Below, piece by piece: positions 44,955-63,264 of a DNA stretch of 64,000 nt. Each line of letters begins with the position of its first letter. The first letter of the stretch is position 1. The stretch is taken from contig JANYKQ010000038.1 of the NCBI GenBank assembly GCA_025358115.1, positions 30,509 to 94,508 on the forward strand, in the 5' to 3' direction. This DNA is from Methanomicrobiales archaeon. Lineage in GTDB: Archaea > Halobacteriota > Methanomicrobia > Methanomicrobiales > Methanospirillaceae. Position numbers and translations under genes: made by a program. Below the pieces are notes generated by a model. The model searched no databases. It was not told the DNA's origin and saw only the letters and a program-made list of their open reading frames with translations.

Positions 44955-45839
44955 TTACCGCTCTTCTGAGAACTGTAAAGGCGGGATGGCACAATTTACT
45001 TCAAGATAATTTCCCAGCAGATCGTTTCCCAGCTCTTTCCGGTTATGTGCCGGTAAGGGTTTCCTGTCGCAACAGAACGAAAATTGCCGCCCGTTGCCTT
45101 CCGGCGATCGCGTGCTTAAGCGGAACAGGGTCTCTGCGCAGTTTTCTGATATGCCAATGAAGAGAATCTCCCGGGTGCCGGCATCAAAGATAAGGTAATC
45201 CCCGGGCTGGGGCGGGACGATCCCGACCTGGGAGGGTTTTAAGTCCCTGCGGGTACTCCAGGACAGACCCATCCAGCCCGGGTCCCCGGGTTTTCCGGTT
45301 GCCGGTAACGGAGATGCGCTCGGTCCGCCGGAGGGGTTCAGGGGATCCCGGTCGCCAAGTTTTCCCCCCGGACTCCCGTTGTCAATGCCCGATGATCTCT
45401 GGTACTTCCGGTGAAAACGCCCGAAATTGCAGGCCGGGGATTCATGAAGATCCTGGCGGTAACGGTATAACAGGTAACTCCTCACGCCCTTGCGTTCGAT
45501 TTCTGAACCAGTCGATGGCGTGACTGAACACTCATAGGTATAGTTTTTGGCATCTTTCCATGCCCACAGGGCCGGGGCAACCGGATGCGGCTGGTCCTCA
45601 GGCATCCTGCTTTTCATGCTGTTCTGCCGGATCTCGTTGATGCATTGCCGTAATGGCTGGCCGGTCTGGCCGATATACATCAGGGAATTATTTTTGGCAG
45701 CCCGGATCCGGAAGAGACCGGGCTCTGAGGGAATGGTATCAAACCGTACATTGGTTGCGCTGAACGGGATCCATGACGACCATGGAAGCCCATACCAGTT
45801 GTCTGAGAGAAAATCGGGATACTTTTCAGGATCTGCCAT
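44955..45839 (-). CDS. Double GIY-YIG-like protein, copy 1
   Basis: 294 residues. Residues 38-75 (PGLFRIRAAKNNSLMYIGQTGQPL) and 205-250 (PGDYLIFDAGTREILFIGISENC) each look like a GIY-YIG core: a strand with [L/Y]xI, a second with [Y/F]IG, then a helix. The middle has an LLYRYRQ-containing segment and GWMGLSWS. The usual catalytic arginine and glutamate are not clear in the first core. A paralog lies at 47680. It may be a nuclease or a nuclease-derived binding protein. Confidence 0.6.
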   Translation of the reverse strand: MADPEKYPDFLSDNWYGLPWSSWIPFSATNVRFDTIPSEPGLFRIRAAKNNSLMYIGQTGQPLRQCINEIRQNSMKSRMPEDQPHPVAPALWAWKDAKNYTYECSVTPSTGSEIERKGVRSYLLYRYRQDLHESPACNFGRFHRKYQRSSGIDNGSPGGKLGDRDPLNPSGGPSASPLPATGKPGDPGWMGLSWSTRRDLKPSQVGIVPPQPGDYLIFDAGTREILFIGISENCAETLFRLSTRSPEGNGRQFSFCCDRKPLPAHNRKELGNDLLGNYLEVNCAIPPLQFSEER

Positions 45840-47679: not shown

Positions 47680-48585
47680 CTACTTGTTCCTGAACTGGAA
47701 CTCAGGGGCTTTCCGGTACTGCTCAAAATAATTGCCTGTCAGGTCATTTTCCCGTTCCCTGAGCTGGTGCGGCAGTACCGGGTTTTCCAGGCCATGGAAT
47801 GAAAACCGCAGTTCTTTTTCACTCCTGGATTTCCGGGCATGGTCTTCCAGGCGCCGGGCACAATTTCCTGACTGGCCGATATATACAATCTCCTGCGAAC
47901 CGGCATCGGTGAGAATATACAGGCCCGGGCCGGCGGGTGCAGCAGGGATTGTTCCCGTCCCAAGGGTTTGAGGAATGCTCCAGGCAAGTCCCATCCAGCC
48001 CGGTTCACCGGGTGTTCCGGCTGGCTTTAGCGGGGGAAGGCCCGGGCCCCCCGCCGGGTTATCCTTCTGCCCTGCTTCCAGTTTACCGCCGCGAAGGCTC
48101 TCTTTCCGGGACGTGGATCGCCGGTAGCGCGGGTGGATACGGCCGAAGTTGCACGGCGTTGACTCACCCTGTTCCTGCCGGTACCGGTATAACAGGTAAC
48201 TCTCCATCCCCTGTCGCCCGCTGGTAGTTGCATCGAGCGGGGATGCCGAACACTCGTAGGCGAAACCTTCAGCATCCTGCCAGGCCCAGAGAGCCGGCGC
48301 TTCCGCGTGGGGATCGGCCCAGGGCATCAGGTCCCTGCCTTTGAGTACCATGCGGAGATCGGCCAGGCGCTGGTGGAGGATCTTTTTTGTCTCGCCGATA
48401 TACATGAGGAAGTCTTTGCCCGCGGGCCGGATGCGGAAGAGGCCGGGCTCTTTGGGGATCTGCCGGAGTTCGTACTTGTCCGCGGTAAACGGTATCCACG
48501 GGGTCCAGGGAAGGGAGGCCCAGGTCTCAGAAAAGAACTCTTTTGCCGGAAGCTCATTTACCAGGATATCGGAATCAGGCACCAT
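47680..48585 (-). CDS. Double GIY-YIG-like protein, copy 2
   Basis: 301 residues, paralogous to 44955-45839 over its whole length (shared blocks LPW[S/T]xWIPF, PGLFRIR, APALWAW, ESYLLYRYRQ, CNFGR, GEPGWMGLAWS). Core 1 is PGLFRIRPAGKDFLMYIGET near residue 46; core 2, PGLYILTDAGSQEIVYIGQSGNCARRLEDHA near residue 220, has a clearer GIY-YIG helix with an arginine. It is the better candidate of the pair for retained nuclease activity. Tandem GIY-YIG cores in one chain are not an arrangement I know. Confidence 0.62.
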   Translation of the reverse strand: MVPDSDILVNELPAKEFFSETWASLPWTPWIPFTADKYELRQIPKEPGLFRIRPAGKDFLMYIGETKKILHQRLADLRMVLKGRDLMPWADPHAEAPALWAWQDAEGFAYECSASPLDATTSGRQGMESYLLYRYRQEQGESTPCNFGRIHPRYRRSTSRKESLRGGKLEAGQKDNPAGGPGLPPLKPAGTPGEPGWMGLAWSIPQTLGTGTIPAAPAGPGLYILTDAGSQEIVYIGQSGNCARRLEDHARKSRSEKELRFSFHGLENPVLPHQLRERENDLTGNYFEQYRKAPEFQFRNK

Positions 48586-48821: not shown

Positions 48822-49529
48822 TTGATCCAGTTTCTCCACGATACATTCCCGACAACAACTTATTACCCGTTCAACCTGGACATTTTTACCCGGACGGATT
48901 CGATTGCCTTTGAAAGTCCCGTGACCTTCTTCATGGGCGAGAACGGGACCGGGAAATCCACCCTGCTCCGGGCGATAGCAAAACACTGTCACATCCATAT
49001 CTGGGAGGAGCGGACCGGGCACCGGGACCCAAAAAACCCGTTTGAAGACCTGCTCCACGAGAATATCCGGGTCGAGTGGACTGACGGCAGGGTTGCCGGC
49101 TCATATTTTGCATCGGAAATTTTCCGGCATTTTGCCGAAGTGCTGGACGGGTGGAGCAGGGTTGACCCGGGCTGCCGGGATTATTTCGGAAACGGCTCCC
49201 TGGTTGTCAAGTCCCACGGCCAGTCCCACATGAGTTTCTTTGAGAACCGGTTCCGACGAAAAGGCCTGTACCTGCTCGATGAACCGGAGAATGCCCTCTC
49301 TCCCACGCGGCAGCTCGAACTCCTGCGCCTGCTGGGGGAGATCAGCCGGCAGGGCAATGCACAGTTCATCATCGCCACGCATTCTCCCATTCTTCTTGCG
49401 TTTCCTCAAGCCGACATATACTCCTTTGATGCAAGTCCCATCCGGAGGATAGCGTACGAGGATACGGATTATTTCCGGATCTACCGGGATTTTCTCAACA
49501 ACCGGGCGAAATACCTGGAGGGGATTTGA
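48822..49529 (+). CDS. AAA/ABC-type ATPase, COG3910-like
   Basis: 235 residues from TTG 48822, the only start after an in-frame TGA. FFMGENGTGKSTLLRAIA is Walker A, KSHGQSHMSFFENRF the signature region, GLYLLDEPENALSPTRQ Walker B and IIATHSPILLAF the switch histidine. The family is predicted soluble ATPases with an SMC/OLD-like head and no transmembrane part. Roles are unknown, some homologs occurring near defense genes. It is complete and divergent from the GIY-YIG gene. Confidence 0.82.
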   Translation: MIQFLHDTFPTTTYYPFNLDIFTRTDSIAFESPVTFFMGENGTGKSTLLRAIAKHCHIHIWEERTGHRDPKNPFEDLLHENIRVEWTDGRVAGSYFASEIFRHFAEVLDGWSRVDPGCRDYFGNGSLVVKSHGQSHMSFFENRFRRKGLYLLDEPENALSPTRQLELLRLLGEISRQGNAQFIIATHSPILLAFPQADIYSFDASPIRRIAYEDTDYFRIYRDFLNNRAKYLEGI

Positions 49530-55163: not shown

Positions 55164-55462
55164 GATTATCTTTCCTAAACAACAGGCAACGTACGTGTCC
55201 CTGTCTCTTCATCACTTTCATCCGTGTCCGTTAAGGACGACGGTTGATGTATCAGGATATCATTTTGTGCTATATAATTATTATCTTCTATAAAATACAT
55301 CAGGAAAAATGAGGAAAATATTGCAGGGATAATTCATGTGCAGGAACCGGTACCTGGAGGAATTTTAAAGAGACCCGTGCGATCTCTTTCCCTTGAGCCG
55401 GGCCGAAGGATTAATCGACCAGCAAACATTTAACAGAATATATCTTTGTTTTTATTATCACC
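55164..55462. promoter_or_regulatory. Divergent promoter region
   Basis: 299 bp between oppositely oriented genes. AT-rich TGTGCTATATAATTATTATCTTC around 55270 holds likely TATA elements; no ORF of quality was found. Confidence 0.4.
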
Positions 55463-55738
55463 ATGCTCCGCGATTTCGGTATACCCCTCACGATGAAGAT
55501 TATGGCGCTGGGCCACTCGCTGTACGAGGCGGAGTGCATGGCCGCCATCATCGCGATCGAATGCCTGGTGGTATACACGATCATGGGATACCGGTTCTCG
55601 TTTGATGAATCAAAAGAGGAACCCGGTATCTTCTCCGCACCTGCTGTCATCCACACCGGAACCCGAAAAATCGCGGGCTGTGAAGCTGTACACGTGGATG
55701 CCCGGAGAAATTCTCCTGCTCTTTTAACAATGACCTGA
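55463..55738 (+). CDS. Small membrane protein, unknown
   Basis: 91 residues. A short N-terminal amphipathic segment (LRDFGIPLTMKIMALGHS) is followed by one hydrophobic helix (CMAAIIAIECLVVYTIMGY) and a polar tail. A decayed relative lies at 49622. Two copies within 6 kb suggest a locally duplicated accessory gene. No family recognised. Confidence 0.5.
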   Translation: MLRDFGIPLTMKIMALGHSLYEAECMAAIIAIECLVVYTIMGYRFSFDESKEEPGIFSAPAVIHTGTRKIAGCEAVHVDARRNSPALLTMT

Positions 55739-55884
55739 TCCGGTTATCGTCCGGGATGTACAGGCTATTTGTCTGGTCCTGCATCTCCGGACCGAACCCC
55801 GGATGCAAGGAAATTATTCCTGCAGAAGAGCGGAGGCTCTCTTTCTCATGAACTGCTGCTGAACAAAAATGACCAGAAAGCGAG

Positions 55885-56208
55885 GTGAGCACTATAGGAA
55901 ATGATCTTTGTACAGGCAATCCCATCCCCCGGAATTGCGGAAAATCTTTTGGCAGGAATCTGCCGGAACCGGAAATTAATCCGGTACGTTATGATGCAGA
56001 GACTGGCGGTACCGGGCGGGAGAAGTATCCGGAAGGATTCGATCCGGTGACCGGTGGTATCGGGTGGGAAACCCGGCCGGAAGGCTATGACCCGGAGATT
56101 GCCGGAACCGGATGTGGTCCGGAGATAAATCCGGCCTTGTCTTGTCCGGATAAAGAACCCGGCCGCCTGGCCGCCTTCTCAACCCGGGTGATCAGGCCGG
56201 GCCGGTAA
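55885..56208 (+). CDS. Possible Gly/Pro-rich repeat protein
   Basis: 107 residues from GTG 55885. The middle contains three similar segments (RYDAETGGTGREKYPEG, FDPVTGGIGWETRPEG, YDPEIAGTGCGPEINP). No hydrophobic core or signal. It could be a small structural or secreted protein or a chance ORF; I give it low confidence. Confidence 0.35.
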   Translation: MSTIGNDLCTGNPIPRNCGKSFGRNLPEPEINPVRYDAETGGTGREKYPEGFDPVTGGIGWETRPEGYDPEIAGTGCGPEINPALSCPDKEPGRLAAFSTRVIRPGR

Positions 56209-56363
56209 TCACCAGTTCCGGTGCTTCAACCCGGCTGGCCCCGGCCCGCAATGGCTTTCCGGGAAACACCCGGAAAACGGTACCTTTTCCCGGCAGATCC
56301 GGGCAGGCAGGAGATACAATTCCCTCCTGCCGGTCCCGGAAATTTTTCAGGGAGGTTTTACCA

Positions 56364-56528
56364 ATGGAAACGGAAATTATGGGGATCATCCTGGGAGCAG
56401 TGCTCCCGGTCTATCCCCTGCTCTTTGTCATCTACCAGAGAATCGGCAGGTATGATGAGATCGTTGAGGAGTTCAAACAACTCCGCACGGAACATGAACA
56501 TTACAAGGAGGTGCATCATGAACACTGA
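56364..56528 (+). CDS. 54-residue membrane protein, first gene of an unknown operon
   Basis: Not in the ORF track. ATG 56364 has GGAGG eight bases upstream. One membrane helix (IMGIILGAVLPVYPLLFVIYQ) precedes a coiled, charged C-terminus (DEIVEEFKQLRTEHEHYKE) ending in several histidines. Its end overlaps the next ATG by 11 bases, so translation is coupled. It resembles the small subunit of a membrane complex, but I recognise no family. Confidence 0.65.
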   Translation: METEIMGIILGAVLPVYPLLFVIYQRIGRYDEIVEEFKQLRTEHEHYKEVHHEH

Positions 56529-56991
56529 TCCCGCACCTGTAGCAACCGTAACGGGTCTCTACCGGGGAACCTGGAGCGGGCTTGAACCGCTGAGCAGGGA
56601 CACCCCGCTCACGCTCGATGAAGTCCGGCGCAACCCGATCTTCTATGAGCTGGAACTGCACCCGGAGGCGGGCGATGAGAACCTGATCATCGATGTGATC
56701 TATGACAACATGTCCCCCCTGCGGCTGCAGGATCTCATGCGGGGAACCGATATTCCCCGGGGGGTCCGCTTCTGGCCGGACTGGTTCGAGATCCCGCCCT
56801 ACCGGGAGATGCGGGATTGCGATGGCCATCGCGTGTACCCCCGGGCCCCGGGTATCCACACGGTCCGCATCCGGACCGCAAAGCGGAAGTTCGACCGGAT
56901 GGGAAAGGAGCGGGACTTTGGCCCGGCCAATGGCGGCTGGACAAGCCCGCTCTTTGAACTCACCATCACGGCGGATGGTGACGATGTTTGA
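56518..56991 (+). CDS. Soluble protein of unknown operon
   Basis: 157 residues from ATG 56518 with AAGGAGGTG directly upstream; the track start at 56221 is wrong. The sequence is rich in aromatic and charged residues (GTWSGLEPLSRD, DVIYDNMSPLRLQDLM, RFWPDWFEIPPYREM), with no membrane helix. The fold is probably beta-rich. No family recognised. It sits between two membrane-protein genes. Confidence 0.65.
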   Translation: MNTDPAPVATVTGLYRGTWSGLEPLSRDTPLTLDEVRRNPIFYELELHPEAGDENLIIDVIYDNMSPLRLQDLMRGTDIPRGVRFWPDWFEIPPYREMRDCDGHRVYPRAPGIHTVRIRTAKRKFDRMGKERDFGPANGGWTSPLFELTITADGDDV

Positions 56992-57568
56992 GAATGTTGT
57001 CGAGACCCGGGCTGCCATCTGCGGTACCGGGTGCCTGCTCGCCCTTATTTTTTTCGTATCGCACCTGCCGCTCATCCTTCTCATCATACCGGTTGCGATC
57101 CTGTTTCTCGGGATTGTCGCGGACCCGGAGGAGACCCATGCGGTGTGGTACGGCATGCTCTACACGCTCGGCATCTTTGACCTGTCAGTGCTGGATGAGG
57201 AAGAACGGGGGACCTGTTCGGTGAAAAAACACTACTTCTGGTTCGGGGAGGTTGCATCAGCAGCTCTGCTGGCACTCGTCTTTTGCATCCCGCTGGGGAT
57301 ATTCCTGTCCGGGAGAACGGATATCACGCTCGCGTTCATTGGCGCGGCTATGCTGTTCCTGCCGCTCTTTGTCTTCCTGCCCCGGCTTATCCGGCAGGGA
57401 ATGAAAGCAGATACCGGATCAATCCTTGACACGTTTGGGAAGAACGAACAGGTAAAGAAAGTGTTCTGGACCCTGTTTGCTGCACTGGCAGGCATCGTGC
57501 TGATACGGGTGGTGGACCCGGTGACTGCACAGCAGGTAGTGGGAATGATTACGGGCATGGGGGGATGA
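56984..57568 (+). CDS. Four- to five-helix membrane protein of unknown operon
   Basis: 194 residues from ATG 56984 overlapping the previous stop; ATG 56975 is an alternative. Hydrophobic helices lie near residues 13-50 (paired), 80-100, 110-130 and 160-185. Between the first pair and the third helix is a conserved-looking acidic segment (EDPEETH, DEEERG). No transporter motif is seen. With the two genes before it, it forms a three-gene unit of unknown purpose. Confidence 0.65.
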   Translation: MFENVVETRAAICGTGCLLALIFFVSHLPLILLIIPVAILFLGIVADPEETHAVWYGMLYTLGIFDLSVLDEEERGTCSVKKHYFWFGEVASAALLALVFCIPLGIFLSGRTDITLAFIGAAMLFLPLFVFLPRLIRQGMKADTGSILDTFGKNEQVKKVFWTLFAALAGIVLIRVVDPVTAQQVVGMITGMGG

Positions 57569-58236: not shown

Positions 58237-59022
58237 ATGGATACTTCCGAGAATAAACGCAATATCTCACAAAATTCCGGAATCCGGGGTGCGGAATTTA
58301 CCCTTGTTGTGTGCATGTTAATCGTGTTGACCGCCCTGGTATTTGCAATCCTTATCATTCCCATGCAGTGGTCAACCGGTGCAGGGACTACTTCGCTTTC
58401 AGAGATCCTCAAATTTCGGGCAGAGATTCTCACGGTTATCATAACAGCATTCAGTGCATGGATTGGGGCTGGTGCTGCCTACTTCTTTGGCAGGGAAAAC
58501 ATGCGCGAAGCAACCCAGGCCATGCTTGACATGCGCCAGCTTCCTCCCCGGGAGAAGCTGCGGCAGATCTCCTTAAAAGAACTGCCTCCCCGGCCAATCA
58601 CCTGGAAGGTAAACACCGAAGACTTCCTTATCACCGTGTATGATAAGTTAAAAACGGATGTTTCCTGGTGGTTCATTGTCATCACAAAAAAAGATGGGTC
58701 TTTGGAAACGGTAGTCCACGAAGAGGCGATATGGCGTTTTATCGATTCACTGGCACTCGATGGCAAGAAGCCGGATGAGGAATTGAAGAAGATCACCGTC
58801 CAGGCACTGCTGGATTATCTCAAGGAAGAGAAGAACAAGGATCTTGCGACAAAGGTCAAAGATATCTACATCAGGGTCACCTATGATTACACTCTTGGTG
58901 CGGTGAATGACCTGATGCTGGATAAAAAACTCTTCCTCTCGATTATTACGGATGAATCGAACAAGCCGGTCAGCTATATTTCATCCGATGATGTCCGAAG
59001 GGAATTCTTAAAAATGTCTTAA
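58237..59022 (+). CDS. Membrane protein with cytoplasmic CBS-like pair
   Basis: 261 residues from ATG 58237. Two helices near residues 20-45 and 65-88 are followed by a soluble region with two CBS-like halves: PITWKVNTEDFLITVYDKLKTD...WWFIVITKKDGSLETVV and YTLGAVNDLMLDKKLFLSIITDESNKPVSYISSDDVRREF. CBS pairs sense adenine nucleotides and gate attached transport or enzyme domains. The pair is diverged, so binding is uncertain. TATA-like sequence is just upstream. Confidence 0.62.
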   Translation: MDTSENKRNISQNSGIRGAEFTLVVCMLIVLTALVFAILIIPMQWSTGAGTTSLSEILKFRAEILTVIITAFSAWIGAGAAYFFGRENMREATQAMLDMRQLPPREKLRQISLKELPPRPITWKVNTEDFLITVYDKLKTDVSWWFIVITKKDGSLETVVHEEAIWRFIDSLALDGKKPDEELKKITVQALLDYLKEEKNKDLATKVKDIYIRVTYDYTLGAVNDLMLDKKLFLSIITDESNKPVSYISSDDVRREFLKMS

Positions 59023-59252: not shown

Positions 59253-59576
59253 ATGACGGACTCGGCACTTTTACGGATCATCGAAGTCATCGTCCGTACG
59301 CTCGACCCGGATACCATCATCCTGTTCGGATCCCGTGCACGCGGTGACGCACGGGAAGATTCCGATTTCGACATCTGCTTTTTAAAAGACGGTATTACCC
59401 AAAGGCGCCCGCTGGCACGCAAACTCTATCGTGCGCTCTACGGCGTCGGCGTCCCGGTTGAACTGATCGTGGAAGCCTCGGATATATTCTCGAAAAACAA
59501 GGATAACCCGCATCTCATCTATCGTGACATTGCCCGGGACGGGAAGATAATATATGAAAAATCGCATACTGGTTGA
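59253..59576 (+). CDS. MNT-type nucleotidyltransferase (antitoxin of MNT/HEPN pair)
   Basis: 107 residues. The polymerase-beta core LFGSRARGDAREDSDFDICF carries the GSxxxG and DxD metal motif; PVELIVEAS gives the third acidic position. Minimal MNT proteins of this family AMPylate their HEPN partner and neutralise it in type VII toxin-antitoxin pairs. The adjacent HEPN gene follows directly. The enzyme appears intact. Confidence 0.88.
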   Translation: MTDSALLRIIEVIVRTLDPDTIILFGSRARGDAREDSDFDICFLKDGITQRRPLARKLYRALYGVGVPVELIVEASDIFSKNKDNPHLIYRDIARDGKIIYEKSHTG

Positions 59577-59957
59577 ACTATTGGCTCAGCCGTGCTCAAA
59601 GTAATCTTGACCGGGCACGTGCAGGAAAGATATGGGAGACCATCCTTTACGAAGACCTCTGTTTTGACTGCCAGCAGGCTGTAGAGAAATCGCTCAAAGC
59701 ATTGCTGGTGGCTTTAAGATCGGGAGAGCCCGCATACCCATATCATTGGCCGGCTGCTCGAAATCCTTGAACAGGGCGATATGAAAATTCCTGATGATAT
59801 CAAGTGTGCAGCTGATCTCACCGAATATGCGGTCCATACCCGGTATCCCGGCATCTATGAACCGGTTACTGCGGAAGAGTTCCAGGAAGCACTGGCGGTA
59901 GCGGAGCGTATACATGAATGGGTGGATGTCCAGCTCAAATCACGGGCAGGCAACTAA
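59573..59957 (+). pseudogene. HEPN-domain gene disrupted by a frameshift
   Basis: The frame from TTG 59573, overlapping the MNT stop, gives NYWLSRAQSNLDRARAGKIWE...CFDCQQAVEKSLKALLVAL, a typical HEPN N-terminus. It then leaves frame around 59711-59722; the next frame continues with PHTHIIGRLLEILEQGDMKIPDD and a normal C-terminus ending at TAA 59955. Removing one base near GATCGG restores the protein. It could be an inactivated toxin or a sequencing error. Confidence 0.8.
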
Positions 59958-61775: not shown

Positions 61776-62330
61776 ATGGCTGAAAACAAGTACGAATCAT
61801 TGAAAATTGAGAACATCGTTGCTTCCGGAGCCATTGCCGAGACCATTGATCTCGTAGAGCTCTCATCCAAGGTTCCCAACTGCGAACTCAACAAGAAGCG
61901 GTTTCCCGGTGCAGTCTATCGTATCGCCGATCCCAAGATTGCTGCCCTCATATTTTCATCGGGAAAGGTTGTGCTCACCGGCATGCGAAACCGTGAGGCC
62001 CTTACAAAGGGACTTGCCGTCATCACCAAATCTTTGAATGACGCGGGTATTGTAACGCTCAAAGAGCCCAAGGTTGCGATCACCAACATGGTCTGTTCAT
62101 ATGATCTTGGCAAATACATCAATCTCAACAAGATCGTAGTCACGCTCAATGTGGAAAATATCGAGTACGAACCCGAGCAGTTCCCCGGCCTTGTATACCG
62201 GATCAAGGATCCCAAGATAGTTGTCCTCATCTTCTCTTCCGGAAAGATCATCCTGACGGGCGGCAGAAATCTTGAAGATATCCGGAAAGGTCTTGGTGTG
62301 CTTGAACAGAAACTCTCAAGCATTATGTAA
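61776..62330 (+). CDS. tbp: TATA-box-binding protein, copy 1
   Basis: 184 residues, two direct repeats of about 90 residues (LSSKVPNCELNKKRFPGAVYRI...FSSGKVVLTG and NLNKIVVTLNVENIEYEPEQFPGLVYRI...FSSGKIILTG), the saddle fold that binds and bends TATA boxes. Essential in archaeal transcription with TFB. It is followed 380 bp later by a close paralog. Composition is typical for the window. Confidence 0.96.
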   Translation: MAENKYESLKIENIVASGAIAETIDLVELSSKVPNCELNKKRFPGAVYRIADPKIAALIFSSGKVVLTGMRNREALTKGLAVITKSLNDAGIVTLKEPKVAITNMVCSYDLGKYINLNKIVVTLNVENIEYEPEQFPGLVYRIKDPKIVVLIFSSGKIILTGGRNLEDIRKGLGVLEQKLSSIM

Positions 62331-62709: not shown

Positions 62710-63264
62710 ATGGCTGACAAAAAGTACGAATCATTGAAGATTGAGAATATCGTTGCATCCGGTGTTATTGCAGAATCCATTGATCTTGTTGAACTCTCCA
62801 GTAAGGTCAAGAACTGCGAACTCAATAAGAAACGATTCCCCGGTGCAGTCTATCGTATCGAGGATCCCAAGATCGCATCCCTGATCTTCTCATCCGGCAA
62901 GATCGTGCTCACGGGCATCCGCAACAACAAGGCACTCGTGGACGGGCTTGCAATCATCATCAAGTCATTGAATGATGCCGGCATTGCAACCCTCAAGGAA
63001 CCCAAGGTTGCGATCACCAACATGGTCTGCTCGTACGATCTCGGCAAGTACATCAACCTCAACAAGATCGTAGTTACGCTCAATGTTGAGAACATCGAGT
63101 ACGAACCCGAGCAGTTCCCCGGTCTCGTTTACCGGATCAAGGATCCCAAGATCGTAGTCCTCATCTTCTCGTCGGGAAAGATCATCCTCACGGGCGGCAG
63201 GAACTTAGAAGACATCCGCAAGGGTCTTGGCGTTCTCGAACAAAAACTTGAAAGCATAATGTAA
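62710..63264 (+). CDS. tbp: TATA-box-binding protein, copy 2
   Basis: 184 residues from ATG 62710, chosen to match the paralog; the track start at 62689 adds seven residues with no support. It is nearly identical to copy 1 in the second repeat, with most changes in the first (SIDLVELSSKVKNCELN, DPKIASLIFSSGKIVLTGIRNNKALVDGL). Having two TBPs suggests a specialised or condition-specific one. Confidence 0.95.
   Translation: MADKKYESLKIENIVASGVIAESIDLVELSSKVKNCELNKKRFPGAVYRIEDPKIASLIFSSGKIVLTGIRNNKALVDGLAIIIKSLNDAGIATLKEPKVAITNMVCSYDLGKYINLNKIVVTLNVENIEYEPEQFPGLVYRIKDPKIVVLIFSSGKIILTGGRNLEDIRKGLGVLEQKLESIM

Follow-up and report, generated by a model that had tools for sequence, protein, structure and literature searches.

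A conserved A-B-C membrane operon of Methanoregula and its relatives belongs to a dispersed gene unit usually led by a protein restricted to Methanomicrobiales

The described systems closest to the genes considered here are of several kinds. One is the set of order-specific signature proteins of Methanomicrobiales, which have 62 exclusive clusters, 26 of them hypothetical (PMC2686161). Others are toxin–antitoxin modules with one-transmembrane (one-TM) peptide toxins; CBASS and Pycsar operons with TM effectors, the Pycsar cyclase PycC bearing an Ig-like sensor domain (AGS-C); and the carbohydrate-binding domain of Wzt. We compared with these a locus in the window, i.e., the whole 64,000-nucleotide stretch of archaeal DNA analyzed here, and found it to be an incomplete copy of a dispersed gene unit usually led by a fourth gene, P. 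Like the signature proteins, P is confined to the order, and it possibly corresponds to one of those 26 hypothetical clusters, which are unnamed in the text of that study; the range of the three window genes is far narrower than the order.

The original prediction placed three co-directional open reading frames at 56364–57568, and this is exactly where they lie, on the + strand. Gene A (56364..56528, +) encodes a 54-aa bitopic membrane microprotein with an acidic N-terminus, a TM segment at approximately residues 3–27, and a charged cytosolic tail (IGRYDEIVEEFKQLR). Gene B (56518..56991, +) encodes a 157-aa soluble protein, and gene C (56984..57568, +) a 194-aa polytopic membrane protein with ~5 TM segments. 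The expected series of one-TM, soluble, and multi-TM products agrees with hydropathy, which yields one segment for A, none for B, and, for C, a long double one with three others. The overlapping starts were also borne out, with overlaps of 11 nt between A and B and 8 nt between B and C. As for the strong ribosome sites claimed for the first two genes, Shine-Dalgarno-like sites do precede both, CAGGGAGGTTTTACCATG for A (GGGAGGT, with its spacer at 56349..56363, +) and AAGGAGGTGCATCATG for B; the start of C is preceded by a weak GGTGA alone. Two invariant motifs of C, D-P-E/H-A-V-W-Y-G and K-HYFWFGE, fall in a single E/H/W/Y-containing loop that hydropathy places between TM segments 2 and 3, and which is predicted to be cytosolic by the positive-inside rule, a topology taken from charge only.

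A scan of one-genome-per-species contigs yielded 44 loci, assigned to Methanoregula, Methanoregulaceae, or Methanomicrobiales, with flanking genes called by a simple hexamer caller. A was present in nearly all full copies, and wherever B and C co-occurred the order was A-B-C. The overlap between A and B measured 11 nt in 27 of 33 other copies and 8 nt in 3; in 24 of 35 copies the overlap between B and C was 8, 11, or 14 nt, and in the others gaps of 5–164 nt separated the two genes; a purine-rich site preceded A in 26/33 copies and B in 32/36. Since the overlaps and ribosome sites recur in other copies, they are not due to chance. The ratio dN/dS was ~0.07–0.25 for B and C between close copies, and 0.16–0.29 between the window and its sister copy L010. 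A, B, and C are thus real overlapping genes under purifying selection, and the view of a coupled membrane operon of families without a known match holds: its genes stay together across genomes rather than being scattered or matching known unrelated families, although many isolated 3′ fragments of C also exist. The three products may form a physical complex.

Gene A has a further peculiarity: at codons 18–26 and 45–54 in all copies, conservation of its synonymous sites exceeds that in B and C, and 91% of codons are identical in the last of these segments. The signals that initiate B, its ribosome site and start, account for only part of this conservation. An antisense gene over A was considered and rejected, its frame being uninterrupted in 17 of 33 copies, where 18.9 would be expected.

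Clustering of neighboring genes placed a 167-aa soluble protein, P, directly upstream of A in 33 of the 44 loci. The usual unit is therefore P-A-B-C, ~1.9 kb long, with A-B-C as its membrane half. In pairwise comparisons, similarity between copies set in ~80–100 bp upstream of P and ended at the C stop codon, and the flanks usually differed even when units were 88–91% identical, e.g., between L025 and L028 on two contigs of one genome. Neither P nor a remnant of it was found in the window, including the region where it would be expected (55170..56348, no strand), and similarity to sister copies starts there only ~36–50 bp before A. Hence the predicted three-gene operon is conserved as A-B-C yet incomplete, and the picture of a single operon gives way to a dispersed multi-copy family that includes decayed copies.

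Beyond P, a search for conserved flanking partners turned up only short recurrent upstream open reading frames, in about one third of loci and with no family match, and none was retained. Runs of paralogous short frames (80–170 aa) lie upstream of P at seven loci (L006, L013, L014, L033, L037, L039, and L155), and antirestriction-like genes lie 3′ of some copies. A conserved noncoding repeat of ~330 bp (L030:6596-6924, L012:6596-6899, L032:6645-6975, and L044:8616-8959) was often found directly 3′ of C and also alone, in 1–23 copies per genome across the 11 Methanoregula and 1 near-relative genomes searched. It has a weak consensus structure and no Rfam match, and its candidacy as a part of the unit was dropped, as it is an independent dispersed repeat.

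The window itself holds several other genes of note. Just 3′ of the operon, 58237–59022 encodes a protein of 261 aa with two TM segments, whose SLATT-like and CBS-like matches are weak. At 59253–59957, an MNT-like nucleotidyltransferase gene matching the PADLOC candidate PDC-S09 is followed by an apparently frame-broken HEPN-like partner, split at 59573–59770 and 59781–59957. A 235-aa, apparently short AAA ATPase at 48822–49529 has PADLOC matches to AriA/PtuA/GajA-type ATPases, and two similar proteins, each with a stretch resembling GIY-YIG (GLFRIR..LMYIGQTG), are encoded at 44955–45839 and 47680–48585, on either side of a poorly coding region.

Next, we evaluated how widely each gene occurs; because most of the genomes are draft metagenome bins, the copy numbers and absences given are approximations. 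Of the 232 class genomes searched by profile, 45 carried C, spread over 7 genera of one family, and 34 carried B, from 4 genera. Across the phylum, 288 of 295 genomes had no B, and the 7 matches all came from the same genus. B and C are restricted to Methanoregula and a few relatives, and constitute an added module. Intact copies numbered ~1–5 per genome, in addition to many decayed 3′ ends of C; the genome of the window carries 5 C loci (4 of full length, with 67–72% identity), 4 B loci, and 5 P loci. In a tree of the B and C proteins, several old paralogue clades appeared alongside a small number of duplicates within single genomes; there, the window copy grouped with L010, L014, and L013.

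P, in contrast to this narrow module, was found in 193/232 class genomes and 33/40 genera, with 1 to 15 copies each, and was restricted to Methanomicrobiales among the 295 phylum genomes. Nearly all inspected P proteins were exactly 167 aa long. By an eye count, a one-TM microprotein adjoined P in ~80 of 88 P loci, and P stood either with this microprotein alone or with another module besides. The partner types included A (54–56 aa), A′ (39–46 aa, MDNELILTGAFLGAGLLAYVVIPGLLVMWDRVLDHM type), and a 49-aa form, as well as an 80-aa coiled-coil/TM protein that is transcribed divergently and weakly matches the phage family phrog_1103 (E 9e-5). An hhalign comparison (P-value 6e-4, probability 28%) is no more than suggestive of homology between A and A′. 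At two loci, L181 and L182, P-A was followed by a 144-aa one-TM protein, D, and not by B-C. As P occurs in most genomes of a major methanogen order with a near-invariant length, no curated family, and no significant fold match, a function for P would be a function for an order-defining protein. The microproteins paired with it can escape a gene caller limited by length. The role of the extra modules is best sought in Methanoregula, which has as many as a dozen copies together with a B-C extension of its own.

The prediction that no product would match a known family was upheld by profile searches: A, B, C, and P had nothing at or near the curated cut-offs in Pfam, NCBIfam, and PHROGs, and no match to the PADLOC system protein models. 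No significant PDB sequence match was obtained for B, C, or P; the best one for C, to the GABA-B receptor (E 0.002 over 80 hydrophobic residues), was taken as compositional and set aside. Structure prediction gave B an Ig-like beta-sandwich (pLDDT 87, pTM 0.82), whose best PDB structure matches were a carbohydrate-binding domain, RoxP, CARDB, and Pycsar AGS-C, all with low TM-scores. P was predicted to be an alpha+beta protein (pLDDT 89, pTM 0.79), with no significant match of the model in PDB or viral structures, and the idea that it is TBP-like was abandoned after profile comparison returned nothing. A limited literature search found no description of these genes. Overall, A, B, C, and P are new as protein families, where newness means that no test placed them in a known family or system, and concerns the families, not a mechanism; the one defining feature shared with a named group is the generic pairing of a small membrane peptide with a soluble protein.

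The history of the window copy can be examined at the HIT/TBP locus, where L010 carries the full P-A-B-C unit, the window has A-B-C without P, and L047 retains no more than the final 60 codons of C. On 19 other contigs of related genomes, the TBP loci lack the unit, the orthology of those TBPs being uncertain. The comparison of L010, the window, and L047 supports a scenario in which the unit reached the locus in a common ancestor and was then eroded in situ, which leaves the better survival of the 3′ end unaccounted for. The window also has tandem TBP genes (61776–62330 and 62710–63264) whose proteins are 91% identical, and Methanoregula genomes have several TBPs each. Elsewhere, profile and protein searches returned ~100 partial C matches, mostly of the 3′ end and some of them contig ends, often in the same orientation as another copy and within a few kb of it. 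Retro-copies truncated at the 5′ end are a candidate source of such fragments, against which in situ decay fits at the one comparable locus. MITE-like deletion derivatives were discounted, a P start fused near the end of C occurring at a single locus (L154). Copies duplicate within genomes and decay, and the best reading is that the unit is maintained by birth-and-death evolution.

As the role of the unit, we tentatively favor, at a probability of roughly 45%, a membrane-bound surveillance or conflict module, toxin–antitoxin-like or defence-like. Specifically, microprotein A would anchor P at the inner membrane face to form a membrane-bound core; in the Methanoregula extension, the Ig-like domain of B would join this core in the cytosol as a sensor or adaptor, and the polytopic C, whose conserved loop is rich in His, Glu, and Trp, would provide a channel- or enzyme-like output. 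For the window A-B-C, function would then depend on P made from a different locus in its genome; alternatively, the copy would be in early decay. A surveillance or conflict role would explain the dispersal, the copy turnover, and the swapped partners, and is consistent with the further P copies in the genome of the window and with the replacement of B-C by D after P-A. It sits less easily with the presence of P in almost every good genome of the order, which is housekeeping-like and unlike the patchy toxin–antitoxin and defence systems, with the lack of any PADLOC match for the four proteins, and with the generic nature of the Ig-like fold of B. That near-universality (126 of 135 high-quality class genomes), together with the constant length of P and the purifying selection on the proteins, instead suits an ordinary structural or membrane-organizing complex of P and its microprotein, e.g., a membrane-bound scaffold or filament, with B-C as a Methanoregula refinement and the copies serving dosage or as specialized paralogues. 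We regard such a complex as somewhat unlikely, since copies lie in unrelated contexts, have duplicated recently, and decay, partner modules are swapped, and some genomes of the order lack P.

The loss of P from the window, along with its retention in the sister L010 and the mere 60 codons of C in L047, could also mean that only a non-functional, decaying remnant is left in the window, its three-gene operon an accident of decay. This we consider doubtful: none of the three frames is broken, Shine-Dalgarno-like sites are in place, the dN/dS between window and L010 is low, even if it partly predates the loss, and P could be obtained from other loci of the same genome. Still less probable is that P-A, with or without B-C, is a mobile element, its passenger, or a domesticated provirus, whose function is spread and not service to the host. 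Discrete unit ends with differing flanks, dispersed P units 85–96% identical within single genomes of other genera, the phage-family match of the 80-aa partner, and the antirestriction-like genes downstream of some copies would all suit such an element. However, the unit has no recombinase or transposase, four sister copies show neither inverted repeats nor constant outer ends, C and P have no IMG/VR relatives, and P is absent from phage records and plasmids; moreover, gene conversion between old paralogues would likewise yield sharp ends, and several loci are syntenic between genomes. An element with fixed ends was rejected, as the sister copies within one genome (G058) have ragged borders and no terminal repeats. 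Returning to the conflict module, a more ambitious version of it strikes us as improbable at present, though worth stating: P and an interchangeable one-TM microprotein could be the core of an undescribed, order-wide conflict or membrane-protection system of Methanomicrobiales, a small spreading cassette that acquires different effector modules, namely B-C for Methanoregula and D for a related genus, with a fold of P perhaps unseen in solved structures.

Compared with described systems, the likeness of B to Wzt remains at the level of fold: the Wzt carbohydrate-binding domain (8dku, 6o14) is its best Foldseek match (E 9e-4), but with a TM-score of 0.40 and 11% identity, and the unit includes no ABC ATPase. 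B gives a weak match to the AGS-C domain of PycC (9ard; Foldseek E 0.022, TM 0.42/0.49) and, as in CBASS and Pycsar operons, is encoded beside membrane proteins; yet it has no Pfam AGS_C match, 9ard scores no better than several other Ig-like sandwiches, and the P-A-B-C unit has no nucleotide cyclase or SMODS gene, nor was a cyclase or nucleotidyltransferase found among the conserved genes of the 44 loci. With toxin–antitoxin modules the unit shares a small hydrophobic peptide encoded beside a soluble protein in multiple, dispersed, and decaying copies, and most P loci include, as those modules do, two adjacent genes of which one encodes a small membrane peptide; it differs in that P is near-universal in the order and no known toxin–antitoxin family is matched. 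Although the near-universal presence of P points to a core function, the multiplicity, turnover, changing partners, and dispersal of the unit appear closer to conflict systems than to metabolism.
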